From assembly GCF_039645975.1 (NCBI RefSeq), contig NZ_CP147918.1:930001-994000 (forward strand): DNA of 64,000 nt, written 5' to 3'. The translations under genes and the position numbers were made by a program. Under the pieces are notes generated by a model. That model saw only the letters and a program-made list of their open reading frames with translations. It searched no databases and was not told where the DNA came from. Below, piece after piece: positions 46,268 to 61,717 of the stretch (its first letter is position 1; each line of letters opens with the position of its first letter). Origin of the DNA: Sulfurimonas sp. HSL-1716. GTDB lineage: Bacteria; Campylobacterota; Campylobacteria; Campylobacterales; Sulfurimonadaceae.

Positions 46268-46327
46268 GTCCGTGTCCCTTGTTTGAGCTTTTGAAAATTA
46301 TATCATTATTATTTGAGAGCAATGTAG

Positions 46328-46333
46328 TATAAT
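46328..46333 (+). promoter_or_regulatory. -10 box six bases before the antiporter ATG
   Basis: TATAAT is followed by only six bases before the ATG at 46340, and no Shine-Dalgarno sequence is visible. If this is the working promoter, transcription would start at or next to the start codon, giving a leaderless mRNA. Confidence 0.45.
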
Positions 46334-46339
46334 ATTTGG

Positions 46340-47539
46340 ATGGAAGCACATGACTTTTTTCTGATACTCTTTTTGATTCTCATCGTCGCCCGTATATTGG
46401 GCGAGCTTTTTGCGCGGCTGGGTATCCCTTCCGTTTTGGGCGAGCTTTTTGCAGGGGTACTTCTCGGTTCCTCTGTTTTAGGCGTGATCGAGCCAAACGA
46501 AATACTCAAGATATTGGCTGAGATCGGGATCATCCTGCTTCTGTTTGAAGTGGGGATAGAGACCGATTTTGCGCGTTTGAAGAACGCCGGAATGAAATCT
46601 TTGGTAGTCGCGATATTAGGTGTGGTACTGCCGCTTGGCACAGGGCTTTTGACCTCTTACTATCTTTTCGGACTGGCTTTTGACATCTCCTTGTTCATTG
46701 GCGGTACGCTTACGGCGACGAGTATAGGCATCACGCTTCGGGTATTGCGGGATATCCATATGGAAAATACCAATATAGCCCAGATCGTCATCGGCGCGGC
46801 GGTGATAGACGATATCATCGGCATCATCCTTTTGGTTTTCATATATGACTTTTCCGTCTCGCATGAAGCGAACTTCAGACATACCCTCTCCGTGGCGGGA
46901 ATGGTTTTGATGTTTTTGGTGCTCGCACCCGTTTTGGCAAAGACTCTTTCCTACCTCATACACAAATATCATGGACGCCATCTCGTGCCCGGATATATCC
47001 CGACCATCATTATCTCTCTTATTTTGCTTTTTGCGTATTTTTCGCATCTGGTAGGTGCTCCCGCCATCCTCGGTTCGTTTGCGGCAGGAGTAGCCCTTTC
47101 ACGCAGGTTCTTTCTGCCTTTTGGAGCTTTTTTGAACACAAACGAGATACTGCTTGGCGAGGTCAGAAAGAACATGACCCCCATCATCCAGATATTTACC
47201 CCCATCTTTTTTGTCATGGTCGGTCTCTCCATGGATCTGCGGGTCATAGATTTTTCGTCGGCTTCTTTTTGGGTGATGTCCGTTTCATTTATCTCTCTTG
47301 CTTTTATTACCAAGTTCATAGGTGCGTTTTTCATCATTCAAAGCTGTGCAAGGAACAACGCCCTCATCGGTATCTCGATGATACCAAGAGGCGAAGTAGG
47401 GCTTATCTTTGCAGAGATGGGAAGGGTAAACGGCATCCTTCCAAACGAAATATACGCAATGCTGATCTTTGTCATCATAGCTACGACGGTCATTCCTCCG
47501 TTTCTGCTTAAGAAATATTTTAAAGGAGAGTGTGCTTAA
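46340..47539 (+). CDS. CPA2-family cation:proton antiporter
   Basis: A 399-residue inner-membrane antiporter of the Kef/NapA type with about 12 helices. The first helix (DFFLILFLILIVARILGELF) and RLGIPSVLGELFAGVLLG match the family start. AAVIDDIIGIILL holds the paired acidic residues of the transport core, and MIPRGEVGLIFAEMG is the conserved late helix. There is no C-terminal TrkA-N nucleotide-binding domain, so it is more like a Na+/H+ exchanger than KefB/KefC. Ion specificity is not determined. Confidence 0.92.
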   Translation: MEAHDFFLILFLILIVARILGELFARLGIPSVLGELFAGVLLGSSVLGVIEPNEILKILAEIGIILLLFEVGIETDFARLKNAGMKSLVVAILGVVLPLGTGLLTSYYLFGLAFDISLFIGGTLTATSIGITLRVLRDIHMENTNIAQIVIGAAVIDDIIGIILLVFIYDFSVSHEANFRHTLSVAGMVLMFLVLAPVLAKTLSYLIHKYHGRHLVPGYIPTIIISLILLFAYFSHLVGAPAILGSFAAGVALSRRFFLPFGAFLNTNEILLGEVRKNMTPIIQIFTPIFFVMVGLSMDLRVIDFSSASFWVMSVSFISLAFITKFIGAFFIIQSCARNNALIGISMIPRGEVGLIFAEMGRVNGILPNEIYAMLIFVIIATTVIPPFLLKKYFKGECA

Positions 47540-47543
47540 AACA

Positions 47544-47586
47544 CCGGATGATTTGCAAAGATCAAAAGATGATATAATCGTCCGGA
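47544..47586. promoter_or_regulatory. Inverted repeat around a -10 box before the Lon-like gene
   Basis: CCGGATGATT (47544-47553) and AATCGTCCGG (47577-47586) pair over ten positions with one G-U. A TATAAT (47573-47578) overlaps the right arm, about 50 bases before the next ATG. It could be an operator, or the end hairpin of the antiporter transcript, though no T-run follows. Confidence 0.4.
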
Positions 47587-47630
47587 GTTTCTAAAATACC
47601 CGATTATATAACAGTGAACGAGGTGATATT

Positions 47631-50009
47631 ATGGAATATACTTTAGAGGTATCGCAGCTTTACCATGCATGCGAGAGCGAGCTTTTTTCATTTGACAGCA
47701 CCGAAGAACTTGAGCCTTTGACGCAGCCTATCGGGCAAAAAAAAGCTTTTGAAGCGGTGGATTTTGCTATCGACATCCAGCAGAGCGGTTACAACGTTTT
47801 TGCCATGGGGCCGGCGGGAAGCGGGAAGTTTTCTACTATCTTGAGCTTTTTGCAGGAAAAAGCGGCAAGCCGAAAAGTTCCAAGCGACTGGTGTTACGTA
47901 AACAATTTTCAAGATCCGAGAAAACCGCTCGCCATAGAACTTTCGCCGGGAAAAGCCGCAGAGTTTAAAGAGGATGTCGATGAACTCGTCGAACTTTTAA
48001 AAGAGATACTTCCGACAGTCTTTGAAAGCAACAGCTATCATAACGAGCGTGAGGCGATCGTAGAAAAATACCTCAATCAGCAAAGCGCTATCTTTAAAGA
48101 ACTCCAAGAAGAAGCCCTCAAACATGACGTCGCGATGGACGCATCCTCCATGACGCGCGTGACCTTTGTCCCTATCATCGACGGTAAAAAGCTCTCAGCA
48201 GAAGAGTTCAAAGCCATCAAAGGCGAACAAAAAGAGGAGATAAACCGTAAACTGACAGAATATGAGGCGATCTTAAAAGAGGGATTGCGCAAGGTCAGCG
48301 AACTTGCCAAAGCACAGCAAAAAGAGTTTAAATCGCTTGATAAAAAAACGACCGAGAACGCGGTGACATCGCTTATCGACGATCTTCGCGAAAAATACGG
48401 CGGCTTTGAGAAGATCATCGCTTATCTTGATGCCCTGAAGCAAGACGTCATCCGCAACGTAAGGGATTTTGTAGTCAAATTGGACGATATGAACATGCCT
48501 CCTTTCATGCAGGAATTCTACGCGCCGACATTCTCAAAATACGAGGTGAACCTTCTTATCTCTCACGAAGCGGACAGCTCCGCACCCGTCATCTTTGAAG
48601 ACAATCCCACGCATCAAAACATCATAGGAAAGATGGAATACTCATCACAGGTCGGAACGCTCATTACGGATTTTACGATGATCAAACCGGGTGCGCTGCA
48701 CAAAGCAAACGGAGGGTATCTCATCTTAAACGCGAGAAAACTGCTTATGCAGCCTTTTGCGTATGAAGAGTTAAAACGCGTCCTGCGCTCAAAAGAGATA
48801 CGCATAGAGTCTCTTGTCCAGCAGTATTCGCTTATCAGTACGACCTCGCTTGAGCCCGAGCCGATCCCCATAGACGTCAAGGTCGTTCTTATCGGAGAAC
48901 GGGTGCTTTACTATCTTTTGCACCACTACGATCCCGATTTTGAGGAGCTCTTTAAGGTCAGTGCGGATTTTGAAGACGATATGCCGCGCTCCAAAGAAAA
49001 CATCGGGCTTTATGCAAGGATGATAGGCACCATAGCAAAGCGCGACGGACTGCTTCCTCTGACTCCAAATGCCGTTGCCAGAGTTATAGAAGAGAGTTCC
49101 CGCGAGGTCTCGCATGCCCTGAAGTTTTCCACGCATCTCAGAACGCTTTCGGACCTGCTCAAAGAAGCGGATTACTGGTCGAAAAAAGAGGGAAGCGGAG
49201 TAATCGACAAACAGAGTATCGACAAAGTTCTTTTGACCCGCAAAGAGCGTCTCAACCGCATCCAAAGAAAGCTTTACGAGATGATAGAAGAGGGGACTAT
49301 CATGATAAACGTCGGCGGAAGTACGGTGGGGCAGATAAACGCTCTTAGCTTCATCTCTTTGGGCGGGTATGATTTCGGTGTGGCCACAAGGATCACCGCA
49401 AGGACCAGGATCGGCAAAGGTGAGATAATCGACATCGAGCGAAAGGTCGAGCTCAGCGGGCCTATCCACTCAAAAGGGGTAATGATCCTCAGTTCCTATC
49501 TGGGCTCTACATACGCCAAAGATATGCCGCTTAGCCTCTCCGTCTCGCTCGTGTTCGAACAGTCTTACGGTATGGTCGAGGGCGACAGCGCTTCGTCCAC
49601 GGAGCTTTACGCCATCCTCTCCTCATTGAGCGAGCTGCCCATAAAGCAAAATATCGCCGTGACGGGCTCTGTAAACCAGTTTGGGGAAGTACAGGCCATC
49701 GGCGGGGTAAACGAGAAGATAGAAGGGTTCTTCGACATCTGTATGCGTCATGACCCTAAAGCCTCTTACGGGGTCATCATCCCCCATGCGAACGTAAAAC
49801 ATCTGATGCTCAAAGAGGAGGTGCTCGAAGCGGTGAAAAACGGCACTTTTACCGTGTACGCGGTCAAGAACATAGACGAGGGGATATCCATACTGACGGG
49901 TGAAGATGCAAAAATCGTCAATGCAAAGGTCGTTGACCGTCTGAGGGAACTCTCCAAAATAGCAAGAGAGTTTAACAAGTCCAAACATGAAGACGAAGCA
50001 AAAGAGTGA
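47631..50009 (+). CDS. Lon-like AAA+ ATP-dependent protease
   Basis: A 792-residue protease of the Lon-related, AAA_32-containing group (different from classical LonA). The Walker A loop is GPAGSGKFSTILSF at about residues 60-75, followed by a long inserted helical region. The C-terminal Lon protease domain has the catalytic Ser in VEGDSASSTELYAILSSL and the catalytic Lys in GGVNEKIEGFFDIC. LHKANGGYLILNARKLL marks the second AAA segment. It probably degrades misfolded or damaged proteins. It overlaps pgeF by four bases. Confidence 0.93.
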   Translation: MEYTLEVSQLYHACESELFSFDSTEELEPLTQPIGQKKAFEAVDFAIDIQQSGYNVFAMGPAGSGKFSTILSFLQEKAASRKVPSDWCYVNNFQDPRKPLAIELSPGKAAEFKEDVDELVELLKEILPTVFESNSYHNEREAIVEKYLNQQSAIFKELQEEALKHDVAMDASSMTRVTFVPIIDGKKLSAEEFKAIKGEQKEEINRKLTEYEAILKEGLRKVSELAKAQQKEFKSLDKKTTENAVTSLIDDLREKYGGFEKIIAYLDALKQDVIRNVRDFVVKLDDMNMPPFMQEFYAPTFSKYEVNLLISHEADSSAPVIFEDNPTHQNIIGKMEYSSQVGTLITDFTMIKPGALHKANGGYLILNARKLLMQPFAYEELKRVLRSKEIRIESLVQQYSLISTTSLEPEPIPIDVKVVLIGERVLYYLLHHYDPDFEELFKVSADFEDDMPRSKENIGLYARMIGTIAKRDGLLPLTPNAVARVIEESSREVSHALKFSTHLRTLSDLLKEADYWSKKEGSGVIDKQSIDKVLLTRKERLNRIQRKLYEMIEEGTIMINVGGSTVGQINALSFISLGGYDFGVATRITARTRIGKGEIIDIERKVELSGPIHSKGVMILSSYLGSTYAKDMPLSLSVSLVFEQSYGMVEGDSASSTELYAILSSLSELPIKQNIAVTGSVNQFGEVQAIGGVNEKIEGFFDICMRHDPKASYGVIIPHANVKHLMLKEEVLEAVKNGTFTVYAVKNIDEGISILTGEDAKIVNAKVVDRLRELSKIAREFNKSKHEDEAKE

Positions 50010-50716
50010 CGATGATAGAGAAGTTTACGGAAGTACTTTGCAGGTTTTCCACGCGGGATGAGGGAGGCAACCTCGCTTTTCATGTAGGCGACGACATAAA
50101 AGCCGTCGATGCCAACCACGCGCTTCTGGCACAAAAGCTCGGCTATAACAAAGATGTTTTGGTGCATATGAAGCAGATACACTCCGACATCGTCCATGTC
50201 GTGACTCCAAAAGACACTTTTCATACTCCGCCGACCTGCGACGCACTCGTGACAAACAGAAAAAACGTTCCTCTTATGGTAATGGTCGCAGACTGCACTC
50301 CGGTGCTTTTTTACGACCCCGTGCACAAAGCCATCGGCGTAGCACATGCGGGTCGTGCGGGAGCGTTTGGCAACATTGTCAAAAACGTAGTGCAGACGAT
50401 GCAAAGCGAGTACGGTTCAAACCCGCAAGAGATCATCGTCTCCGTTGGCTCTGCCATCGGCGTGTGCTGTTATGAGGTCGGCGAAGAGATATATGAAGAG
50501 AGTAAAAAGGAGTTTGGTTACGCTTTTGAAAAACACGCAGGGAATTACTACCTCGACATAAACAAGATCATACTCACACAGCTAAAAGAGTGCGGCATAC
50601 AAGAGGAGCACATACAAAACGACGGTGTCTGTTCCGCCTGTAACACAAAAGAGTATTTTTCATACAGAGCGGAGGGGCAGACGGGCAGGTTCGCAGGCAT
50701 CTTGATGCTGAAATGA
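50006..50716 (+). CDS. pgeF: PgeF/YfiH-type multicopper-like protein
   Basis: A 236-residue member of the laccase-domain (Cu-oxidase_4) family. E. coli YfiH (PgeF) removes wrongly incorporated L-Ser from peptidoglycan precursors; other members act on nucleosides. The conserved metal-site blocks are MKQIHSDIVHV, VMVADCTPVLFYD, GVAHAGRAGAFGNIV and the Cys-containing CSACNTKEYFSYRAEGQTGR. The start overlaps the protease gene. Its last ~52 bases recur 1559 bases downstream, after the SDR gene (see repeats). Confidence 0.93.
   Translation: MTMIEKFTEVLCRFSTRDEGGNLAFHVGDDIKAVDANHALLAQKLGYNKDVLVHMKQIHSDIVHVVTPKDTFHTPPTCDALVTNRKNVPLMVMVADCTPVLFYDPVHKAIGVAHAGRAGAFGNIVKNVVQTMQSEYGSNPQEIIVSVGSAIGVCCYEVGEEIYEESKKEFGYAFEKHAGNYYLDINKIILTQLKECGIQEEHIQNDGVCSACNTKEYFSYRAEGQTGRFAGILMLK
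50664..50716 (+). repeat. Direct repeat A, copy 1 (3' end of pgeF)
   Basis: The last 17 codons of pgeF including the stop. A near-identical copy lies at 52223-52274 in the same orientation: four base differences and one missing base. The two copies enclose the SDR-DUF2867 gene. Confidence 0.9.
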
Positions 50717-50743
50717 TAATGACTTTAAGATGAGGAGTTTGTT

Positions 50744-52168
50744 ATGAAGGTACTACTCACGGGTGCAAACGGATACATAGGCAGGCGGTTAAAACAACAT
50801 CTTTTAAAAAACCGAGAAGTCCAGCTAAGAATCTTTGTGCGGAATAAAAAAAGTCTTTCTCCTGAAGTGCTTGCAGTGCATGAGATCATAGAGGGTGACA
50901 CATTCGATAAAGAAGCGCTAAGAAATGCACTAGAAGGTGTAGACACGGCTTATTATCTTATCCATTCGCTCAACAAACCAAACTACAAAGAACTCGACAA
51001 ACTTTCAGCCCAAAACTTCATAGACACAGCGACGGCATGCGGAGTAAAAAGAGTGGTATATCTTGGCGGTCTTGGTGTAAAAAACAGCGATACGAGCGAA
51101 CATCTTTTGAGCAGGCTCGAAACAGGAGAGATACTAAGCTCTTCAAAAACGACACAGACTCTCTGGATCAGAGCGGGCGTGATCATCGGTTCGGGAAGTG
51201 CAAGCTTTGAGATCATCCGTCATCTTGTAGAAAAACTCCCGGTACTCATAACTCCCAAGTGGGTCGATACTCTCGCACAGCCCATTGCAGTCGATGATGT
51301 TATCGACTATCTTGCTTCATCTTTGTATCTTAAATACGACAAAAACCTCATTGTTGATATCGGCTCCGAAAAGATGCCCTATAGGGAAATGATGCTTCAA
51401 ACCGCAAAGGCTCTGGGTCTGAAAAGGTACCTTCTTCCTGTACCCTTTATGAGCATCAATCTTTCATCTTATTGGCTCAATCTTTTCACTCCCGTTCCGT
51501 TTAAGGTCGCAAAAGCACTTATAGAAGGGTTGAGATCGGAAGTCGTGATACAAAATGACAATGCGCAAAAATATTATCCGCATATCAAGCCGATGGCCTA
51601 TGTTCAAGCCGTGCAAAAAGCTGTGGATGAGATAGAACAACAACAGGTCATCAGCAGATGGAGCGACGCAGACGGAACCATGTGGGATAAAGCACATGCA
51701 AAGCAGATAAACGATGCAGTTTTTGTGGACAGGCAGGAGGCAAGCATAGACGGTTACGATAAAGAAAAAGTTTTTAAAACCATCACTTCCCTCGGCGGAG
51801 GGCACGGATGGTATGACTACGACTTTTTGTGGGAGATACGAGGTGTTATCGATAAGATTCTCGGCGGCGCAGGACTCAACAGGGGAAGAAGAGATATCTG
51901 CGATCTGAGATTGGGCGAGTGTGTGGATTTTTGGAGGGTGGAAGATATAGAACCAAACCAAAGACTTCTGCTGTTCGCGCAGATGAAACTCCCCGGACAA
52001 GCTTGGTTGGAGTTTAAGATAATCGACAACAGGCTCATCCAGTCCGCATATTTCTACCCTAGAGGAATATGGGGCAGAATCTACTGGTATGCCATGAAGC
52101 CTATGCACTTCTTTATTTTTAAAAACATGATAAAGGGGATATTAAACGAGAGCGCTCAAAGAGAGTAG
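50744..52168 (+). CDS. SDR-type NAD(P)-binding protein with C-terminal DUF2867
   Basis: A 474-residue two-part protein. The N-terminal half is an atypical/extended SDR with the nucleotide loop LLTGANGYIGRRLKQHLL and a family-like VYLGGLGVKN strand. The C-terminal half (from about residue 300) is DUF2867, with GGGHGWYDYDFLWEIRG and AWLEFKIIDNRLIQSAYFYP. The fusion is common but its substrate is unknown. GAGGAG precedes the ATG. It is enclosed by two copies of the pgeF 3' end, so it appears to be a later insertion at this locus. Confidence 0.9.
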   Translation: MKVLLTGANGYIGRRLKQHLLKNREVQLRIFVRNKKSLSPEVLAVHEIIEGDTFDKEALRNALEGVDTAYYLIHSLNKPNYKELDKLSAQNFIDTATACGVKRVVYLGGLGVKNSDTSEHLLSRLETGEILSSSKTTQTLWIRAGVIIGSGSASFEIIRHLVEKLPVLITPKWVDTLAQPIAVDDVIDYLASSLYLKYDKNLIVDIGSEKMPYREMMLQTAKALGLKRYLLPVPFMSINLSSYWLNLFTPVPFKVAKALIEGLRSEVVIQNDNAQKYYPHIKPMAYVQAVQKAVDEIEQQQVISRWSDADGTMWDKAHAKQINDAVFVDRQEASIDGYDKEKVFKTITSLGGGHGWYDYDFLWEIRGVIDKILGGAGLNRGRRDICDLRLGECVDFWRVEDIEPNQRLLLFAQMKLPGQAWLEFKIIDNRLIQSAYFYPRGIWGRIYWYAMKPMHFFIFKNMIKGILNESAQRE

Positions 52169-52222
52169 CTCAACGCATATTGTCTAGCATCAAGTGTGAG
52201 GCTGCTATATGCGCGAAGTTTT

Positions 52223-52274
52223 ACAAAGCAGAGGGCAGACGGGCAGGTTCGCAGGCATCTTGATGCTCAAATGA
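52223..52274 (+). repeat. Direct repeat A, copy 2 (stranded 3' end of pgeF)
   Basis: Not part of any gene. It still encodes the pgeF C terminus GQTGRFAGILMLK and its TGA, but a missing G breaks the frame just upstream. It abuts the stop of the convergent CHASE2-HD-GYP gene at 52275, which suggests that this is where pgeF originally ended. Confidence 0.88.
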
Positions 52275-54182
52275 CTATTCCGTTATACGTTCCGCTATCT
52301 CTTTGAACTTCTCTTTTATCTCGATGAAGATATCTATGAGCACGGGATCGAAATGCGTTCCTTTGCCTTCGATGATGATCTTCTCGGCTTCTTCGTAGCT
52401 AAACCCCTCTTTGTAGCATCGTTTGCTTATAAGTGCGTCATACACGTCAGAGACAGCCATCAGGCGTGCTTCAAGAGGTATCTCCTCTTTTTTCAGACCG
52501 ACGGGGTAACCGCTTCCGTCCCATTTTTCATGGTGGTAGTAGGCTATGTTGTAGGCTATCTTTAAAAACTCGTTCTCTTCGTTGCCCTCTATGGCGTGTT
52601 CGAGGATGTTTTTGCCCAGCGTCGTATGAGTCTTCATGATCTCGAACTCCTCTTCGGTCAACTTCCCCGGTTTTTGCAGTATCTTGTCGGGGATCCCGAC
52701 TTTGCCTATATCATGCAAAGGCGCAGCCCTGAACATAAGGTCTCTGAAATTCTTTGTCAGCTTGTCTTTGCACATCTTGTTCGTGTGCATATGATCCACC
52801 AGAAGCGCTATATAGTTCTTCGTCCGTAAAATATGCGCACCCGTGTCCGTATCTCTTGTCTCGGCGACCAGCGCCATGTTGTCCAGAGTCGCAGAATGCG
52901 CCTTGACAAGATCTTGTATAAACTTCTGCCTGTCTTTGTAGTCGATGATAATGACGATGACGTTTACGATAAAGAAGTAGATGCCAAAAGGGATCAGAAA
53001 GTATCCCGACGAGATGTAGACGTTGCGGTCCAGATAGTAGACCCCGAGAAAATATTCGATCACGATCGCCGATGAAAAGAGGATGAAAAGTTTTAAGTAA
53101 TCCCTTTCTATCAGCAGATATACCAGCAGAAACGATAACAACATCGAAACAAAGAAACTGACCTTTTTAAGGAGTTCGGGCTGGTATTTCAGAGTGTCGT
53201 TCATGATATTGTCTATCAGAGCCGCATGGACGAACACGCCTGGGATCGTACGTGAAGCGGAGATCATGTACCTGTCATGCAGACCTACCGCCGATGTGCC
53301 TATGAGGACAAACTTTCCTTTTAGTTTTGTCAGGTCGGTATGACCGCTGAGAACGTCCACGGCCGAGAGGACGCGGTAATCTTTCGTATTGTGAAAATCA
53401 AGCAGCACCTCGGCGTTTTTCCCCATATGAAAACTCTGCCCTAGGACCGATATCTTGTCATCGGCGACACTCAATCTGTCCACGCTTGAAAGGGTCGCGA
53501 GTCCCAAAGAAGGAATGACCCTGTCGTGGTACTTTATGAAGAGCGATGTTCTTCTGAAGATGCCGTCGGCATCTCTTTGTGAGTTTATGAAACCTATGCT
53601 AAAAGCCTCTTTTTGAAGTTCTCGGATATTGCACAGCATATAGCTCGCTTCGATATATTTCTGCGAAGAAGAAGAGGGAAGGATGTTGTTTTGGGGGATG
53701 AAACAGCGGCCGTTAGGGTGTATCTTGTTGCTCAGATAGACCGGCAGGACGGTTTTCGTCTCTTTTAGTATCTGGGCAAAGAGCTTGTCGTTATCCATAA
53801 GCGCATCTGGGAGTCCGTCTATTTTGATCTTTGTCGAAAAGTACTTGTCATAAAAGGAGAGCATCTCTTTTGGGGAGGTTTTGTCATGTTCTGGGAAGAT
53901 GATGTCAAAACCTATGCTGGCAGGCTTTTGAGAGGCGATCGTCTTTACGAGATTTGCCAGTATCACCCGCGACCACGGCCACTGTCCCAATGCAGCCAGA
54001 CTTTTCTCATCGACATCGATGATGACAACGGGCGCCTGCGTTTCTTTGTCATATAATTCGGCTGCTTTGTATGTGTAGTCATAGATCTTAAGATCGTAGT
54101 ACTCTATGACACCGCTGTAAAATACCGCCGCATATATGACAACGGTAAAGAGAAACCCCAAAAGAAGCGTCGACTTTTTCAT
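52275..54182 (-). CDS. CHASE2 sensor / HD-GYP c-di-GMP phosphodiesterase
   Basis: A 635-residue membrane signalling protein. An N-terminal helix (LLLGFLFTVVIYAAVFYSG) leads into a periplasmic CHASE2 sensor domain, recognisable by VIIDVDEKSLAALGQWPWSR and PASIGFDIIFPEHD. Three transmembrane helices follow at about residues 340-410, then a cytoplasmic HD-GYP domain with TGAHILRTKNYIALL, PLHDIGKVGIPDKIL (about residue 490) and the complete HHEKWDGSGYPVGL (about 550). It should hydrolyse c-di-GMP in response to a periplasmic signal. It follows the FecR and OmpA genes, six bases downstream of the latter, as one operon. Confidence 0.95.
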   Translation of the reverse strand: MKKSTLLLGFLFTVVIYAAVFYSGVIEYYDLKIYDYTYKAAELYDKETQAPVVIIDVDEKSLAALGQWPWSRVILANLVKTIASQKPASIGFDIIFPEHDKTSPKEMLSFYDKYFSTKIKIDGLPDALMDNDKLFAQILKETKTVLPVYLSNKIHPNGRCFIPQNNILPSSSSQKYIEASYMLCNIRELQKEAFSIGFINSQRDADGIFRRTSLFIKYHDRVIPSLGLATLSSVDRLSVADDKISVLGQSFHMGKNAEVLLDFHNTKDYRVLSAVDVLSGHTDLTKLKGKFVLIGTSAVGLHDRYMISASRTIPGVFVHAALIDNIMNDTLKYQPELLKKVSFFVSMLLSFLLVYLLIERDYLKLFILFSSAIVIEYFLGVYYLDRNVYISSGYFLIPFGIYFFIVNVIVIIIDYKDRQKFIQDLVKAHSATLDNMALVAETRDTDTGAHILRTKNYIALLVDHMHTNKMCKDKLTKNFRDLMFRAAPLHDIGKVGIPDKILQKPGKLTEEEFEIMKTHTTLGKNILEHAIEGNEENEFLKIAYNIAYYHHEKWDGSGYPVGLKKEEIPLEARLMAVSDVYDALISKRCYKEGFSYEEAEKIIIEGKGTHFDPVLIDIFIEIKEKFKEIAERITE

Positions 54183-54187
54183 CTAGG

Positions 54188-54784
54188 TCATCTTATGAGC
54201 AGTTCTACCCTGCGGTTTTTCTCTTCGGAGACGTTGTCTCCGGTCGGTACCAGCAGATTTGACTCTCCGTAAGATTCCACATGCAGTTTGAGGATATCTA
54301 CGCTTTGTGACTGGATCCACTCTTTAACGCTGTTGGCTCTCTCTAAAGACAACACTACGTTGTGTTCGGCGGAGCCCTTCGTATCGGTATGCCCGATAAT
54401 ATTTACCTCACAAGGCATCCTGTCTTTAATGTCTTTGAGTATCTGCGGAAGTTTCGCTTTGGACTCGTCCGTCAACTCGTTTGAATCGTTTTTAAAATAC
54501 AGCAGCACGCTTATGGGTTTTAAAGGCGCACTTGCGATCGCGCCTTTAAATCTGCTTTGTATCTGCTCTTTTGTCATCACTTTTACGCTGCTCGGAGCGC
54601 TGTTTTGCGATGAGAGGCTTACGTATGAGCCCGGCTTGTCAAGAACGACCGAACCCTTTTTTGTCTTTACGACGATGGCGTTCTCTGCTTTTCCGTTATC
54701 TGCAAGTACTACGGTCGTGGTCGGATTGCTCATCATCCCGGCTATCAATATCCCCAGCCATGCGATCATTACTATCGGTTCCAT
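54188..54784 (-). CDS. OmpA/MotB-domain protein
   Basis: A 198-residue envelope protein. A short N-terminal hydrophobic segment (VMIAWLGILIAGMM) precedes about 80 linker residues and a C-terminal OmpA-like peptidoglycan-binding domain: LLYFKNDSNELTDESKAKL, IIGHTDTKGSAEHNVVLSLE-type segment (in part), RANSVKEWI and EEKNRRVELLIR, whose conserved Asp and Arg bind diaminopimelate. Its start shares a base with the FecR-domain gene stop. In this operon it may fix the sensor system to the cell wall (inference). Confidence 0.92.
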   Translation of the reverse strand: MEPIVMIAWLGILIAGMMSNPTTTVVLADNGKAENAIVVKTKKGSVVLDKPGSYVSLSSQNSAPSSVKVMTKEQIQSRFKGAIASAPLKPISVLLYFKNDSNELTDESKAKLPQILKDIKDRMPCEVNIIGHTDTKGSAEHNVVLSLERANSVKEWIQSQSVDILKLHVESYGESNLLVPTGDNVSEEKNRRVELLIR

Positions 54785-55206
54785 TACCTGACCTCCACAT
54801 AAAACTTCGTACCGCGTATCCCGATGGTCCCTTCGGGGACTTTGAATTTTACGGACTGAGGGGAAAGTTCGCTGATCTTGCCCGACTCAAAGGATGCGAC
54901 CCCTTTGTGCAGGTCTATATCAAACTTGTAATCTTTTTCGACAGGTTTGAAAAGATACTGGTCTATGGAAAGGACGCTTTTTTCACCCAGCGACACGATG
55001 GTGCCGTCATGAAATATGACCCCTATGCTGCTGTGAAGCCGTGTTATGAGGGTATCGCCGACTTGAAGCTGATCGCCGATCTTTAGTTTGACCATTTCAC
55101 TCTTTCTTTTAGCGAAGACTTCACCGTCGAGCTTTTTGACAATAGCGATATCCGCTGAGAACAGGCAGGAGATGAAGAGAAGCATTAACAAGGATACTCG
55201 TAGCAT
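54784..55206 (-). CDS. Exported FecR-domain protein
   Basis: A 140-residue periplasmic protein. The signal peptide is VSLLMLLFISCLFSADI; the rest is a FecR domain with KLKIGDQLQVGDTLITRLHS and the typical end GTIGIRGTKFYVEV. FecR domains often occur next to CHASE2 proteins, as here, and may serve as ligand or adhesion modules. It is the first gene of the FecR-OmpA-CHASE2/HD-GYP operon. Confidence 0.9.
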   Translation of the reverse strand: MLRVSLLMLLFISCLFSADIAIVKKLDGEVFAKRKSEMVKLKIGDQLQVGDTLITRLHSSIGVIFHDGTIVSLGEKSVLSIDQYLFKPVEKDYKFDIDLHKGVASFESGKISELSPQSVKFKVPEGTIGIRGTKFYVEVR

Positions 55207-55240
55207 AAATAACCTCTATTAATCTTGGAATAAGTACACA

Positions 55241-55729
55241 TTATACTCTCATTTTCTTTGTTTTTTTTAAGATTTTTGATTTAATGAACTCTTCTGTGAA
55301 CTTTAGCATGTTCTTGTAGTGGTCGCCGTGCCAGTACACCCTGCCGCACTCTTTGCACTTTTCAAAGGTGTCGAAATACTTTCTGGTCTTAGCTTTGAGC
55401 TCTTCGATGACTTCCAGCTTCTCTATTTTTTCAAGCTCGCCATTACACTTGATGCATCTGCTGAGCGGCTTGGTCTTGTCAAAAAGCTTGTAGTGGTGAA
55501 ATATCTCTTTTAACTGCTCCTCATACCCTGCATGGACAAGATACAAAGCGTCGTGATGTTTCATCCTCTGGTAGAGTATCTTGTCGCTCGTGAGAAGAAA
55601 ACGCTCCTCTTTTTGCGCGATCTCTATGATGTCGTCATCGTCTATGCTCTGAAAGTAAAGTGTGTCAAAGCCGAATATCCGCAGATACTTGGCGATCTTT
55701 CCCAAATGGCAGTCGGCTATGAATTTCAT
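55241..55729 (-). CDS. Mut7-C family PIN-like RNase with zinc ribbon
   Basis: A 162-residue protein of the Mut7-C family, a PIN-fold RNase domain with a C-terminal zinc ribbon. KFIADCHLGKIAKYLRIFG supplies the first catalytic Asp, FLLTSDKILYQR the second, and two pairs, CIKC and CKEC, bind zinc. The ATG at 55729 begins the domain exactly; a TTG ten codons earlier is the only longer start. A TATAAT six bases before the ATG, without a ribosome-binding site, suggests leaderless translation. Its first 16 codons recur at 56415-56483. Confidence 0.9.
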   Translation of the reverse strand: MKFIADCHLGKIAKYLRIFGFDTLYFQSIDDDDIIEIAQKEERFLLTSDKILYQRMKHHDALYLVHAGYEEQLKEIFHHYKLFDKTKPLSRCIKCNGELEKIEKLEVIEELKAKTRKYFDTFEKCKECGRVYWHGDHYKNMLKFTEEFIKSKILKKTKKMRV

Positions 55730-55749
55730 GGGATTATTATAGCTTATAT
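55681..55749 (-). repeat. Direct repeat B, copy 1 (5' end of the Mut7-C gene)
   Basis: Covers codons 1-16 of the Mut7-C gene plus 20 bases upstream with the -10 box. It matches 56415-56483 at 63 of 69 positions without gaps. The four coding differences are all synonymous. Confidence 0.92.
55736..55741 (-). promoter_or_regulatory. -10 box of the Mut7-C gene
   Basis: On the minus strand TATAAT stands six bases before the ATG. It is retained in the second copy (56470-56475), where the six-base spacer has changed at two positions. That placement predicts a leaderless transcript. Confidence 0.5.
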
Positions 55750-55830
55750 GAAAGTTCAAACTACTTTGGAAATGTGAATTTAATGATACAATTATCTAAC
55801 CTCTTGTTCGTTATAAAAGGAAAGTGACCT

Positions 55831-56400
55831 ATGATCCCGTTTAACTATCTAGGATTTGTCTTTAAACACTTTAGCTCCTCTTTATACCCAAAGAAGGTGG
55901 TGGAAGAACTTTGCATGTTCATAAAACCGTTATGTGACGAAGCATCCGTTTTAGACATCGGAGCAGGGACAGGAATGATGTGCGAGTTCGCATACAGATG
56001 CAATCCCAAGCTGAGATATGTAGCAGTAGACCCGGCGAAGGGTATGCTCAAATATACCGAGGAGTATGTAGAAGTACATACGGCAACTGCAGAAGCGCTG
56101 CCTTTTGATGATGATAGTTTTGATGCCGTACTCATGGGAGAATCACTACACCATCTTACTGATCCGGATATGGCTATGAAAGAAGTTGTAAGGGTTCTCA
56201 AAAAAAACGGAAAACTCTTTATTTATGATTTTGATAAGGGAACGTTTTTGGGCAAGAGCCTCTGGGCTATGGAAAAACTTCTCGGTGAACCTGCTCATTT
56301 TTATGAGGTACATGCACTAAAAAAGATGCTTGAAGAGCATGGTTTTCATGTACATGTAAGTCAACATAAGTGGCGTTACAGTGTAAGTGCTGCTTTATAA
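55831..56400 (+). CDS. Class I SAM-dependent methyltransferase
   Basis: A 189-residue Methyltransf_11/UbiE-like enzyme. SAM-binding motif I is VLDIGAGTGMMCEFA (about residues 43-57), followed by AVDPAKGMLKY, the post-II motif FDAVLMGESLHHLTDPD and VVRVLKKNGKLFIYDFDKG. The substrate is unknown. It is divergent from the Mut7-C gene and lies between two copies of that gene's 5' end, so it is probably an acquired gene. AAAGGAAAG precedes the ATG. Confidence 0.9.
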   Translation: MIPFNYLGFVFKHFSSSLYPKKVVEELCMFIKPLCDEASVLDIGAGTGMMCEFAYRCNPKLRYVAVDPAKGMLKYTEEYVEVHTATAEALPFDDDSFDAVLMGESLHHLTDPDMAMKEVVRVLKKNGKLFIYDFDKGTFLGKSLWAMEKLLGEPAHFYEVHALKKMLEEHGFHVHVSQHKWRYSVSAAL

Positions 56401-56414
56401 ATATCTTATCTTTT

Positions 56415-56483
56415 GCAGATACTTAGCGATCTTCCCTAAATGGCAGTCAGCTATGAATTTCATGGGGTGATTATAGCTTATAT
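56415..56483 (-). repeat. Direct repeat B, copy 2 (stranded 5' end of the Mut7-C gene)
   Basis: Encodes MKFIADCHLGKIAKYL on the minus strand with its own -10 box, then runs into non-coding DNA. It lies 734 bases from copy 1 in the same orientation, between the methyltransferase and darT. Confidence 0.92.
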
Positions 56484-56557
56484 AAGAATTTATTTTATAT
56501 ATAGTAAAATAGATTTAAATTATCTTGTAAAATTCAAGTTAATAAAAGGAAATGGGT

Positions 56558-57157
56558 ATGCCCAAAAATATTAAAGATGGAAAGTTATTATATCATTTGA
56601 CTGCTTTGTCGAATATGGATTCAATTTTAAGAGATGGTTTGAAAGCTAGATCAAATTTGAGTAGTGATTTTAAAGATGTTGCTGAACAAGACATAATAGA
56701 TTTTAGAAATAAACATAAGATATCTTACCTGATTCCTTTCCATTTTTTCTTAGGTACACCATTTGCTGGAAGAGTTCAAATGAATCATCCAGACGAAGAA
56801 TTTGTATATATTACCATTCGTAGAAGAATTGCAGCTAATAAAGAAAATGATTTCAGAATCTTCCCGACACATCCTAAACATATGAATCCTTTAGTAAGTT
56901 ATGATTATGAAGAGGGAATTGAAAAAATTGATTGGGAATTAATGAACGAACGAGAGTATTCTAATCCAGAATGTAAAGAAGTTTGTATGGCAGAATGTGT
57001 AGCTAATCATGAAGCTATTTTACCAGGAGCGTTCCAGTCGATTATTGTCAAGTCTGAAACAACAAAAAAATACATACAAGAGTTATACCAAAGTATTTAC
57101 GGTAATAGTCCTTCTTTCTTTATAAATGTACAAGCTCAGTCTTTTAAAGGACATTAA
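56558..57157 (+). CDS. darT: DarT-like DNA ADP-ribosyltransferase toxin
   Basis: A 199-residue DarT-type (DUF4433-related) enzyme; known DarTs attach ADP-ribose from NAD to bases of single-stranded DNA and block replication. The N-terminal NAD-site segment is LLYHLTALSNMDSILRDGLKAR. IPFHFFLGTPFAGRV matches the conserved P-F-x-F turn, and the catalytic Glu should be that in VCMAECVANHEAILPGAF. AAGGA seven bases upstream supports the ATG at 56558 rather than one two codons earlier. DNA is conspicuously AT-rich compared with neighbours. The antitoxin gene follows five bases later. DarT family assignment rests partly on that partner. Confidence 0.85.
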   Translation: MPKNIKDGKLLYHLTALSNMDSILRDGLKARSNLSSDFKDVAEQDIIDFRNKHKISYLIPFHFFLGTPFAGRVQMNHPDEEFVYITIRRRIAANKENDFRIFPTHPKHMNPLVSYDYEEGIEKIDWELMNEREYSNPECKEVCMAECVANHEAILPGAFQSIIVKSETTKKYIQELYQSIYGNSPSFFINVQAQSFKGH

Positions 57158-57162
57158 TTACA

Positions 57163-58188
57163 ATGTATACATTAACAACTGGAAATATTTTAGAAAGTGA
57201 AGCTGAGTGTTTAGTCAATACTGTGAATTGTGAAGGATTCATGGGAAAAGGGCTTGCCTATCAGTTTAAAAATAAATTTCCTCTAACTAATGAATCTTAT
57301 ATGAAAGCTTGTAAAAGTCATGAATTACATCCTGGAAAATTACATTATTTTTTTGAAAATGAAAAATTAATTATTAATTTTCCTACAAAAGATAAATGGC
57401 GAGAAAAATCTAAGATAGAATATATTGAAAATGGTATGAAAGCCTTAGTAGACTTATTAAAAGAAAAAAATATTCAATCAATAGCGATCCCACCATTAGG
57501 AAGTGGAAATGGTGGATTGAACTGGAAAGAAGTCAAAAAAGTTATAGAAAGTTATATATTTCCTCTTTCAAAAGAAAAGGATATATATGTGTATGAACCT
57601 GCATTAATGTATAAGGCAGATGTAAAGAAAGCTCCAAAGTTAACAATGTCTCATATGATATTGATGACCATTAAAAAAGAATTAGATAAGTTCTCAAAAA
57701 TAAGATTACAAAAAGCTGCTTTCTTTATTAATGTTTTAAGTAGAAAAGATTATTTTAAATTTCAAGCACATCACTATGGTCCATATTCATATGCAATAGA
57801 TATATTGTCAAGAGACATTAAAGAGTTTCAAGAATTTCATAAATTTCAAACAGAAAAAGCATTAGCAGTAGCTCATCAAACTTTAACTAGTGAGAAAATG
57901 GAAAAAGAATTGTCAATGTTTTTACCTTTCATTAAAAAAGCTGCAAAACTAGTTAATTCATATTCATCCAATGAAAAATTAGAATTAATAGCCACAGTTT
58001 GTTTTATTATTTTAAATAATCAAAACATAAATGAAGTGGAAGTTATCAAAAAGCTCCATGAATGGTCTGAAAAGAAAAAAAATAAGTTTTCTCAAACTGA
58101 TATTTCAAATGCTATTAATGAATTGTTGAATTTAAATATTATACGTAAAGATATTCTTGGAAATTATAGTATAAATTATAGTCATTAA
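57163..58188 (+). CDS. darG: DarG macrodomain antitoxin
   Basis: A 341-residue DarG. The N-terminal macrodomain (about residues 1-150) contains TTGNILESEAECLVNTVNC, GFMGKGLAYQFKNKFP, IINFPTKDKWREKSKIE and IAIPPLGSGNGGLNW, the ADP-ribose-binding loops that remove DarT's DNA modification. The C-terminal part (about 165-340) has LQKAAFFINVLS and HHYGPYSYAIDIL, matching the DarG toxin-binding domain. The ribosome-binding site AAAGGA lies inside the end of darT. The AT-rich composition shared with darT marks a two-gene module acquired together; family members act as toxin-antitoxin and phage-defence systems. Confidence 0.93.
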   Translation: MYTLTTGNILESEAECLVNTVNCEGFMGKGLAYQFKNKFPLTNESYMKACKSHELHPGKLHYFFENEKLIINFPTKDKWREKSKIEYIENGMKALVDLLKEKNIQSIAIPPLGSGNGGLNWKEVKKVIESYIFPLSKEKDIYVYEPALMYKADVKKAPKLTMSHMILMTIKKELDKFSKIRLQKAAFFINVLSRKDYFKFQAHHYGPYSYAIDILSRDIKEFQEFHKFQTEKALAVAHQTLTSEKMEKELSMFLPFIKKAAKLVNSYSSNEKLELIATVCFIILNNQNINEVEVIKKLHEWSEKKKNKFSQTDISNAINELLNLNIIRKDILGNYSINYSH

Positions 58189-58196
58189 ACTTTTTA

Positions 58197-60566
58197 TCAC
58201 AACTCCACAATCCGCTCAAACATCTCTTTTATCTCCATCTCGTGGCTTATCAGAAATATTTGTCGGTATTGCTCTTTGATGGTGTGGAATGCTTCTAGTA
58301 TCTCCATCCGTCTGTTTTCGTCCTGACTTCCAAACACCTCGTCAAATGCCAAAAACTCTACGCTTGAAGCACCACTGAGTTCCGTGAGGGTCTTTGAGAT
58401 GGCGATGCGCAGGACTAGGTTCGCGAGGTCTACCTCTCCGCCTGAAAATCGCTCGATCGGGTACTTTTTGCCCTCGTCGTAGATGAAGAAGTCAAAGTCG
58501 TTGCTCACCTCTATGTGCTGGTACTTGCCTTTGGTGATGCGTGCGTACATCTCCGAGGCGATGCTCGATATCCTCGGTGCTACCTGAGAGTTGAGACGGG
58601 TCTTGAACTCGGCTAGGCTTGTCTTGATCTTTTCAAAGTCCGTGAGGTCGTCTTTTTTGCCTTGCACCTTTTTGAGCTGTGCGTCGTTGTTGTCCAGAGA
58701 GTTTTGGATGCTCTTTATCTCCCCTTCGATGCGTGCTATCTGCACCTTTAACTCGTTTATGACCGCCGTTTTCTCATCTATGGTCTTTATGATGGCATCG
58801 TGCTCTTCAAGTGTCTTTTCGTGCTGTTTTTCATCGTAGATGATGCTTTTAAACTCCGTGTCTTTGTTCTTACATGTAAGGGCTAGCTCGGCTATCTTTT
58901 TGTTGACGTTCTCCAAGTCCGACTTCACAAGCACGAGGCGTTTTAGCTCCGTCTCTAGGCTGAGTGCGTGTTTGTACTGCGGCTCTATGGCGCTAAGGCT
59001 GTTTTTGAGTTCATTGTGCAGTTTCTCGTCGTAGCTGTAGGCTTCGAGTGCTTTTAGTTCCTCTTTGTTCTTTACACCTTTTTGCTCCACTTGGGTGAAG
59101 TGCTCTTTTGCTTTTTTGAGGTCTATGAGCTTGCTCTCTATGATCTTTATCTTGCCGCTCAGCTCTGCGAACTCTTTGTCTTTGAGCTTTTTTTGTGCTT
59201 CGAGGTCGGCTTTTTGGGTCTGTACGGCTAAGAGCTGTTTTTTGTACTCGTCTACCTTTTTTTTGTGGGTGTTGTTGACGATGTCTACAAGCGACTTGAT
59301 GACGTTGTCATACTCCTCTAAAAGCGGTCTTGTACATGTAGGACAAGCCGACTCGCTTCCGAGCTCCTTGAGGTTTGCTATCTTGGCGTTTGTTCTGTCT
59401 ATGAGCTTCTGTTCGCCCGCCATCTCTGCAAGGAGTTCGCGCTCTATGGTGTGCTTGACCTCTATGTTGTCTTGACGTATGGAGAGCTCCTGCTCCAGGT
59501 TTTTTGCATCGAAGGTGAACTGCTCATACATCTCGCACTCTTTTTCAAGTACATGGATGTCGGCTTTTGACTTGTGCCACTCGTCCGTGAGGGCTTTTTG
59601 CTCTTTGAGGATACCCTCTTTTTTGAGGTGGAACTCTCTGAGCTGTTCTTGCTGTTTGATCTGCTCTTGCAGCTGTGTGAACTGCGCTTTTTGAGGTTCG
59701 AGTGTCTTTAGTTCGGCTTGTTTGTGCTCGAGCTGATGCAGTTCCGCCGTGAGCTTGACATGGTTCATTACCTCGGAGTCGTGTGCCTGCTGGGCGCGTT
59801 CAAACTCTGCAAAGAGCTTTTGTTTCTGCTCTTTTGTCTTGGTAAGGAGGGAGAGCTCTTGTTTAAGATGCTGTTCTCTTTGTCTGATGTGAGAGAGTTC
59901 TTCGCTCTTGCTCTTCTCATCTTTTAAAAGAGCAGACTTGCTCGCTTCATCGGCTTTTATCTGCTCGAGCTTCTGTTTTATCTCATCATCGCCGAGGAAT
60001 ACCTCTTTAAACGCTTCTATCTCGCGTTTGAGCTGACGGCTCTTTTCTATGAGGCTGTTTTCTACGAAGTCTATTTTCTCCAGCCCCAAGAGCTTACGTA
60101 TCATCCTCTTTCTGTCTTCATTTTTAAGAGTGCTCAGGCTTGTGAGCTCTTTTTGGGAAGCGAAGAGGGTGTGCATGAAGGCGTCTTTGCTCATCTTGGT
60201 TATCTTGACGATGGAGGAGGTCACCTCTTTTGCTCCGCTTGTTATGAGCTCTTCGTTTTTAAAGAGTTTGGCGTTTGCGGTGAGTGTCTTTCCTCGAAAC
60301 TCTCTAACGACCCTGAATGTCGCACCCTCATACTCAAACACAAGTTCCACTACGACAGCGTCTTTTGCAGAAGCGTCGGCGTTACGTATGAGATCTTTGT
60401 TTCCTCGGCTTTTCATCTCGCCGTAGAGGGCTAAAAGGATCGCTTCAAAGATGGTGGACTTTCCGCTTCCGTTCTTGCCGATGATCCCCACAAGCCCCTC
60501 GCCGAACTCGATGTCAAAAGCGGTGTACTTTTTGAAGTTTTCCAAGTGGAGGCTAGAGAGTATCAT
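58197..60566 (-). CDS. sbcC: SbcC exonuclease subunit (Rad50-like ATPase)
   Basis: A 789-residue SMC-type ATPase that works with SbcD to cut DNA hairpins and blocked ends. Walker A is GIIGKNGSGKSTIFEAILLA (residues about 28-47). Two long coiled-coil arms flank the zinc hook CPTC near residues 405-410. The C-terminal half has the signature RFSGGEVDLANL, then Walker B EFLAFDEVFGSQD. The ATG at 60566 has AGGAGG six bases upstream and begins the conserved ILSSLHLENFKKY strand; the frame extends 19 codons further inside sbcD without support. Its stop lies eight bases from the convergent darG stop. Confidence 0.95.
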   Translation of the reverse strand: MILSSLHLENFKKYTAFDIEFGEGLVGIIGKNGSGKSTIFEAILLALYGEMKSRGNKDLIRNADASAKDAVVVELVFEYEGATFRVVREFRGKTLTANAKLFKNEELITSGAKEVTSSIVKITKMSKDAFMHTLFASQKELTSLSTLKNEDRKRMIRKLLGLEKIDFVENSLIEKSRQLKREIEAFKEVFLGDDEIKQKLEQIKADEASKSALLKDEKSKSEELSHIRQREQHLKQELSLLTKTKEQKQKLFAEFERAQQAHDSEVMNHVKLTAELHQLEHKQAELKTLEPQKAQFTQLQEQIKQQEQLREFHLKKEGILKEQKALTDEWHKSKADIHVLEKECEMYEQFTFDAKNLEQELSIRQDNIEVKHTIERELLAEMAGEQKLIDRTNAKIANLKELGSESACPTCTRPLLEEYDNVIKSLVDIVNNTHKKKVDEYKKQLLAVQTQKADLEAQKKLKDKEFAELSGKIKIIESKLIDLKKAKEHFTQVEQKGVKNKEELKALEAYSYDEKLHNELKNSLSAIEPQYKHALSLETELKRLVLVKSDLENVNKKIAELALTCKNKDTEFKSIIYDEKQHEKTLEEHDAIIKTIDEKTAVINELKVQIARIEGEIKSIQNSLDNNDAQLKKVQGKKDDLTDFEKIKTSLAEFKTRLNSQVAPRISSIASEMYARITKGKYQHIEVSNDFDFFIYDEGKKYPIERFSGGEVDLANLVLRIAISKTLTELSGASSVEFLAFDEVFGSQDENRRMEILEAFHTIKEQYRQIFLISHEMEIKEMFERIVEL

Positions 60567-61671
60567 CTGCTGCCTCCTCATACTCTGCAAAGAGCTCTTG
60601 GACTTTGTGTTTAAGTCTTTCAAACTCCTTCTCTTTGCTATCCTCTTTGATGTGTTCGAGAAAAAACTCTTCTAAAGAAAGTGCTTCGACATCACGGGCA
60701 GTGCTTTCGTTTGTTCCCTGTTTAAACTCCCGTTTGACGCTTACATGTAAGGCATCAGGAAATAGTTCTTTTATGGCGGAGTTTTGGATGTCTATGGACT
60801 GCAACGCGGTAAGGTTTGTAAGACGTATCTCCACAAGCGCATCTTTGACGTCGCTTGTGTCGAGCTTTGAGACGGAGCTTTCATACTCCTCGCAGTCTAT
60901 CTCTTTTTGCACTATGGGGCGGATGGCTATCTCTTTGTATTCCACCGACAAAGTCTCTTTTAACGTGAGAAGGACAAACCCTTTGGAGTTGCGTTTGTCG
61001 CCCAGACTTGTGCGCTCGATCGAACCGCTGTAATAGACGTTCTCATGTTTGCCGACCTTTCCAAAACCGTGCCAGTGACCAAGAGCCACGTAGTCCATCA
61101 TCTTGAAGATGTACTCTTTATCACTTGGGTAGACCCACTCGCCAAACTCCTGCATCAGGTAAAATGCGCCCACGGAGCAGTGCATCATCATGATGTTCTT
61201 TTTGCTTTTGTCTATGTTTGCTTCGCAGAGTTCTATCTGCGAGAGAGCCTTTGTCTCGTCGTTCATGTGGGGCAGGGTGTGAAAGAGGACATCGCTAAAT
61301 GCCACCTTTTTATATGCCTGCTCGTAGGAAAGATAGACGTTTTTAAAGTTCTCGAATATCTTGAGTATGGGTGAGCTTAGATTTGTTCTGGGCGTAGAGT
61401 GGTTTCCCGCTATAAGGATGAAGGGGATGTCAAGAGAGTCTATGATCTTAAACTGTTCAAGTGCAAATGTGATGGCGCGGTTTGACGGGTGTGAGCGGTG
61501 AAAAAGGTCGCCCGTGTGGATGATGTAATCTGGTTTTATCTCTTTGATCTGCTCTACTACCTGAGAGAAAGCGTCGTAAAAGTCCGCTTCCCTTTGGTTG
61601 ATGTTGTCATCGTTTAAGACATCGAGGTCGTTAAAACCCAGATGCGTGTCGCTAAAGTGTATGATCTTCAA
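60553..61671 (-). CDS. sbcD: SbcD exonuclease subunit (Mre11-like nuclease)
   Basis: A 372-residue metallophosphoesterase nuclease, partner of SbcC. All Mre11-family metal motifs are present: HFSDTHLG, IHTGDLFHRS, LIAGNHSTPR, MMHCSVGAF and ALGHWHGFGK. The C-terminal capping and SbcC-contact region is acidic. The start is a TTG preceded by GGGAAG. Its last 14 bases overlap sbcC. It lies 46 bases after the DUF2905 gene in the same direction, so glmU-DUF2905-sbcDC could be one transcript. Confidence 0.95.
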   Translation of the reverse strand: MKIIHFSDTHLGFNDLDVLNDDNINQREADFYDAFSQVVEQIKEIKPDYIIHTGDLFHRSHPSNRAITFALEQFKIIDSLDIPFILIAGNHSTPRTNLSSPILKIFENFKNVYLSYEQAYKKVAFSDVLFHTLPHMNDETKALSQIELCEANIDKSKKNIMMMHCSVGAFYLMQEFGEWVYPSDKEYIFKMMDYVALGHWHGFGKVGKHENVYYSGSIERTSLGDKRNSKGFVLLTLKETLSVEYKEIAIRPIVQKEIDCEEYESSVSKLDTSDVKDALVEIRLTNLTALQSIDIQNSAIKELFPDALHVSVKREFKQGTNESTARDVEALSLEEFFLEHIKEDSKEKEFERLKHKVQELFAEYEEAADDTL

Positions 61672-61717
61672 AACAGCTTCCCGATAGAGTTTTAAACATT
61701 CTACCTAAAAGTTCGGA

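Follow-up and report, generated by a model that had tools for sequence, protein, structure and literature searches.

We found that the 3′ end of pgeF is present twice in Sulfurimonas sp. HSL-1716, as a direct repeat enclosing an SDR-DUF2867 gene that was acquired horizontally from a related bacterium. The arrangement has the look of a well-preserved trace left by DNA integration of a known type, and not that of a new mobile element. Unless another genome is named, coordinates refer to the 64,000-nt stretch that was analysed as a whole (the window).

The pgeF gene is an intact open reading frame on the forward strand (50006-50716), and its product belongs to the YfiH/PgeF family (PF02578, Cu-oxidase_4; Pfam 9e-71). 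Its last 53 nt (copy 1, 50664-50716) reappear on the same strand as the 52 nt of copy 2 (52223-52274), and the alignment of the two contains three substitutions and one deletion. The sequence-only reading of this DNA, which had pointed out the repeat, was thus right about its reality and about the deleted base, but had counted four substitutions. The longest exact match is a core of 35 nt (50675-50709, identical to 52233-52267), which occurs at exactly two sites of the 2.26-Mb genome when up to 3 mismatches are allowed. When the last 75 nt of pgeF were compared with the remainder of 48001-58000, the score was 86, and none of 20 shuffled tails scored above 26. From the exact core through the stop codon the two copies differ at 1 of 42 bases. 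At its left end, copy 2 has about 13 nt, with the deletion and two of the three substitutions among them, that can equally be aligned with another gene, an XRE antitoxin gene, and for this reason we take only 52233-52274 as the certain part of the repeat. An assembly error is hardly to be believed in, as the repeat is just about 50 nt long and the genome is a single contig, 99.84% complete.

The homology between the copies stops at the pgeF stop codon; beyond it lies the leader of the SDR gene after copy 1 and the HD-GYP gene after copy 2. As had been noticed, the TGA of copy 2 (52272-52274) directly adjoins position 52275, where the convergent CHASE2-HD-GYP gene has its stop, and the SDR-DUF2867 gene (50744-52168) is indeed the only gene with a family match between the copies. 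By eye, 52209-52274 can be read as a frame of 21 codons, which starts at an ATG preceded by GAGG and finishes with the peptide of the pgeF tail; this frame is probably due to chance.

Among the genomes examined, the duplication is specific to this one. A second pgeF tail was found at none of the 35 other testable pgeF loci, and the best score among them, 35 (L076), came from a match lying 7 kb from pgeF, on its other side. These loci, 35 of 37 (L101 and L103, where pgeF runs off the end, were left out), represent 31 genomes, four of which are present twice (L037/L073, L038/L074, L039/L075 and L040/L078). Within the genus, a pgeF match and an SDR match were each found in six of the eight genomes, our own included, and the two nearest by pgeF, G001 (78%) and G003 (74%), are both devoid of the SDR gene. 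G001 has a single pgeF tail, followed by DNA different from that of the window: a 35-aa lipoprotein-like ORF, a Mut7-C gene (minus strand), a methyltransferase gene, an XRE antitoxin gene (minus strand) and a gene for a Gp49-type protein (minus strand). In G003 the methyltransferase gene comes next after pgeF. The 35-aa ORF is located downstream of pgeF in G001 (L035 7472-7576) and upstream of it in G003 (L073 9876-9980), and was not found in the window. In the family (228 genomes), 187 genomes have a pgeF match at 1e-20 and 72 an SDR match at 1e-50, and among the pgeF matches listed, whose places were compared by eye, an SDR gene stands beside pgeF only in G005 and G006. There (L038, L039) it is a different SDR-DUF2867 paralogue (36-40%), directly upstream of pgeF.

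The SDR-DUF2867 gene, on the forward strand, encodes an NAD(P)H-binding domain and PF11066 according to Pfam. Its best identities are 75-78% in g16, another genus of the same family, versus a best value of 57% in its own genus (G007). In a protein tree of 35 sequences it forms a group with G087 and G147 of g16 (support 98/97), inside a larger g16 group. This nesting within another genus shows that the gene was acquired horizontally. Its GC3 of 47 falls between that of five nearby host genes (55-60) and that of ten g16 relatives (19-43). The gene has a 27-nt leader (50717-50743, forward strand). As judged by eye, the sequence AGGAGTTTGTTATG ahead of its start also precedes the SDR genes of G147 (L045) and G092 (L052), and the left junction is therefore located in or before the leader. 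The surroundings of the g16 SDR genes (12 loci) mostly differ, with upstream genes common to 7 of 66 pairs and downstream genes to 5 of 66. Direct repeats around the SDR gene gave a score of 86 in the window (shuffle maximum 27), and at the 29 other SDR loci the score was at most 1 above the highest value reached by the shuffles of the same locus; this test covered 30 of 31 loci, the window's own included, L058 being left out for its short flank. No antitoxin gene was found beside the SDR gene at the SDR loci examined, and the donor order pgeF-SDR-antitoxin was found in none of the genomes searched, pgeF places being those of the matches listed. When four relatives were used in place of a donor allele, identity by blocks changed abruptly neither at the pgeF 3′ end nor within pgeF. 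The separate trees of pgeF proposed earlier would have no power, as the tail comprises just 17 codons.

The sequence of the right junction is informative. The 54-nt spacer that follows the SDR stop contains, on its minus strand, 23 nt that are 91% identical to the C-terminal codons of the G001 XRE antitoxin gene (E 0.011 in a search of eight genomes). Only 2 of 1000 dinucleotide shuffles matched the 11-kb region of G001 as well (p 0.002), a value to be weighed as one that follows the eight-genome search and two earlier looks at the spacer (for a pgeF start and for folding). Since the antitoxin gene of G001 lies at the pgeF locus, 1.3 kb from pgeF, we find the match credible. The G007 copy of the antitoxin has 3 mismatches in 23 over the same codons, and our genome holds no other relative of the gene at E 1. 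The putative relic spans 52205-52235 on the minus strand, with 26 of 31 nt identical to G001 from 916779 on, and its right end falls inside copy 2. The 13 nt at the start of copy 2 into which the match continues are similar to both pgeF and the antitoxin gene: the antitoxin-like sequence enters the pgeF tail over TACAAAGCAGAGG, itself similar to both, in what is a short match to a proxy and not to the true parent. We also considered the spacer as an integron attC site; by eye, its second core does not fit.

Where the relic and copy 2 overlap, two ends were probably joined. On this reading no separate mutations are required for the deletion in copy 2 and for two of its three substitutions, and most of its apparent divergence may be junction sequence. 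The divergence between the copies, put earlier at 5 in 53, would come down to about 1 in 42. The earlier proposal of an acquired segment carrying its own pgeF end together with the SDR gene agrees with the foreign origin of that gene and with the end of homology at the stop codon, but the left part of copy 2, which it counted as pgeF, is probably junction.

Another reading of the same spacer starts from a second pgeF that was once complete. Here a circle or tandem of lon end, pgeF and SDR gene would have entered by an ordinary crossover, and the body of the second pgeF would then have been deleted. The bases 52186-52221 can be placed in register with the lon end and the pgeF start (p about 0.02, against both shuffles and genomic stretches), and the ATG at 52209, by eye, is in frame with the tail. 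However, p rises to 0.165 when the whole of pgeF is the target, the pgeF starts of G003, G005 and G006 give no such match, and the antitoxin match fits part of the same bases better, so that we regard this reading as rather improbable. It is more doubtful still that the second tail was kept as a working RNA, for instance as a terminator between the convergent genes. A 122-nt stretch including the spacer does fold to -37.5 kcal/mol (z -2.1), forming a hairpin with the tail, but copy 2 alone folds no better than its shuffles (z 0.98), and we found there no terminator-like site, no Rfam match and no conservation. A conserved RNA, which would have spoken against a stranded gene end, is thus not borne out.

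How did the second tail arise? The account that we favour, and to which we give a little better than an even chance, is homologous recombination of a linear piece in pgeF combined with end-joining at a short similarity (homology-facilitated illegitimate recombination, HFIR), or its single-crossover twin. A linear DNA piece, made of the 3′ part of pgeF, the SDR gene and part of a convergent antitoxin gene, would have entered the cell. On one side it would have recombined homologously with the resident pgeF. On the other, within the antitoxin gene, a short stretch of similarity would have served to attach it to the resident pgeF, some 42-53 bp upstream of the end of that gene. Copy 1, the pgeF end brought in with the piece, would then complete the working gene, and copy 2, the terminal fragment of the resident one, would be left stranded between the SDR gene and the HD-GYP gene. 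In the near twin of this process, the fragment would first be end-joined into a circle, which would then be inserted by one crossover in the pgeF end. Since homology ends at the pgeF stop, with the SDR leader following on one side and the HD-GYP gene on the other, recombination of two pgeF alleles with different neighbours is the simplest account. What we observed is the repeat, the foreign origin of the SDR gene, the lack of such an arrangement in relatives and the antitoxin-like junction sequence; the order of these events, the linear or circular form of the intermediate and the identity of copy 2 as the resident end are what we infer. The linear form is favoured in that it needs no crossover within 42 bp, which the single-crossover form does require (within about 42 bp); the circular form is favoured in that it explains a duplication without deletion.

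According to PMC3240628, HFIR consists of one homologous and one illegitimate junction, the latter mostly with 3-10 bp of microhomology, and usually deletes about 1 kb instead of duplicating. The same paper describes an E. coli conjugation experiment in which 56 of 60 analysed clones had the homologous locus partially duplicated, an outcome explained by a single crossover with a truncated, end-joined circle. Our case resembles these processes in lacking an integrase and, on our reading, would share with them one homologous and one illegitimate junction and a short similarity at the latter; it differs in that HFIR products usually carry a deletion, whereas here 42-53 bp are duplicated, and in that no donor was found. 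Two further points weigh against this account: the antitoxin match is short, and the spacer allows the two other weak readings mentioned above (pgeF start; hairpin with the tail). In favour, as a possible mark of natural competence, a ComEC-family gene is present in our genome, though the same family also matches 10 of 14 control genomes.

In descriptive terms, the closest class is insertion with long target duplication, as direct target repeats flank the insert and neither a transposase nor an integrase was found in it. Such insertions are known from Helicobacter pylori, a member of the same phylum (PMC1643837, PMC3031569). The H. pylori restriction-modification genes, like our SDR gene, are short gene units between direct target repeats, in Campylobacterota and without transposase; the differences are the cargo (here SDR-DUF2867), the presence of a third sequence at the junction and the absence from G001 of a clean empty site. 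As a mechanism, this would mean that SDR DNA was taken up where the terminal part of pgeF had suffered a staggered break, and that fill-in copied about 42-53 bp of the target, the copies being identical at first. The same topology and the single difference in 42 positions of the certain repeat are consistent with it. Nevertheless, the break would then have to coincide precisely with the end of the stop codon, where the HD-GYP junction lies as well, and the likeness of the start of copy 2 to the antitoxin gene is left unexplained. We hold this mechanism to be unlikely, while giving it some weight.

Could the copies instead be the att sites of an element that uses the pgeF end and has lost its integrase? 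The direct repeat with its exact core and the restored 3′ end of the target gene are what such an element would leave. Indeed, in tRNA-type genomic islands, to which the locus had been likened, the 3′ end of the target is restored on one side and a remnant is left on the other. No integrase lies between the copies, as had been stated, and no evidence of an att site was found; our case departs from these islands in both respects, and also in its single-gene cargo and its protein-gene target. No tyrosine or serine recombinase was found in the insert, where the SDR gene stands alone between the copies. The degenerate core pattern had no match in viral contigs, the insert had no relative in plasmids and the SDR gene none in viral contigs; phages gave three remote partial matches. 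The absence of a second tail from the 35 other pgeF loci again speaks against a site in regular use, and no other element was seen at the pgeF-end site in these loci, in viral contigs or in plasmids. With no integrase, phage or plasmid link to the insert found, we consider site-specific integration very improbable.

The HFIR-type event, if it took place, did so in mosaic surroundings. The window is 80.2% identical to G001 over the block 46310-50716. Next comes a FecR - OmpA-like - CHASE2-HD-GYP block on the minus strand (52273-55285), 82.7% identical to G001:C1:1530368-1533378. In G001 this operon is found at 1530 kb and pgeF at 915 kb, 615 kb apart, and the operon adjoining copy 2 is thus itself a relocated block relative to G001. 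The earlier view that pgeF once ended at the HD-GYP gene can therefore apply only to the situation immediately before entry of the SDR gene. The G001 operon (L036 5934-12090) is located between an ankyrin gene and a gene for an 871-aa HD-GYP protein; a search of our genome for these neighbours, as marks of an empty site, gave only distant relatives.

At the right edge of the block, the Mut7-C RNase-domain gene (55241-55759, minus strand) takes its last codons from FecR upstream DNA and begins a tract of 94-95% identity to G001 (94.6% over 55284-56414 and 94.4% over 58199-61710), the other blocks being at 78-86%. The fraction of identical codons is likewise higher to the right of the HD-GYP block (Mut7-C 87, methyltransferase 90) than elsewhere (KefB-like 59, Lon-like 60, pgeF 66, HD-GYP 57, OmpA 62, FecR 67). 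Together, these values mean that a tract recently exchanged with the G001 lineage starts at this edge, and 55284-61710 is a recent import or exchange comprising the Mut7-C and methyltransferase genes and genes that, from the look of their ORFs, we take to be SbcC/SbcD-like. Within it, 56414-58199 carries DarT-type and macro-domain genes in the window and the XRE/Gp49 pair and more in G001. The DarT-type (PF14487) and macro-domain (PF01661) pair, at 56552-58188, is likely a DarTG toxin-antitoxin module. With the relocation of a block, the recent tract and this gene replacement, the tail duplication is one of several rearrangements at one spot. One may speculate, with little confidence, that the SDR-DUF2867 gene is an itinerant single gene that enters genomes repeatedly by transformation at gene ends, and that gene ends are rebuilt in the pgeF-sbcC stretch as a hot spot of recombination.

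In conclusion, the locus offers a scar that can still be read, left when a free-living bacterium related to Helicobacter and Campylobacter acquired a gene without the help of a mobile element. It is a single case and leaves the general view unchanged. Both junctions, the foreign gene and the nearby import tract are all preserved in it, and it shows how a gene hit by such an insert can have its end restored and remain unbroken.
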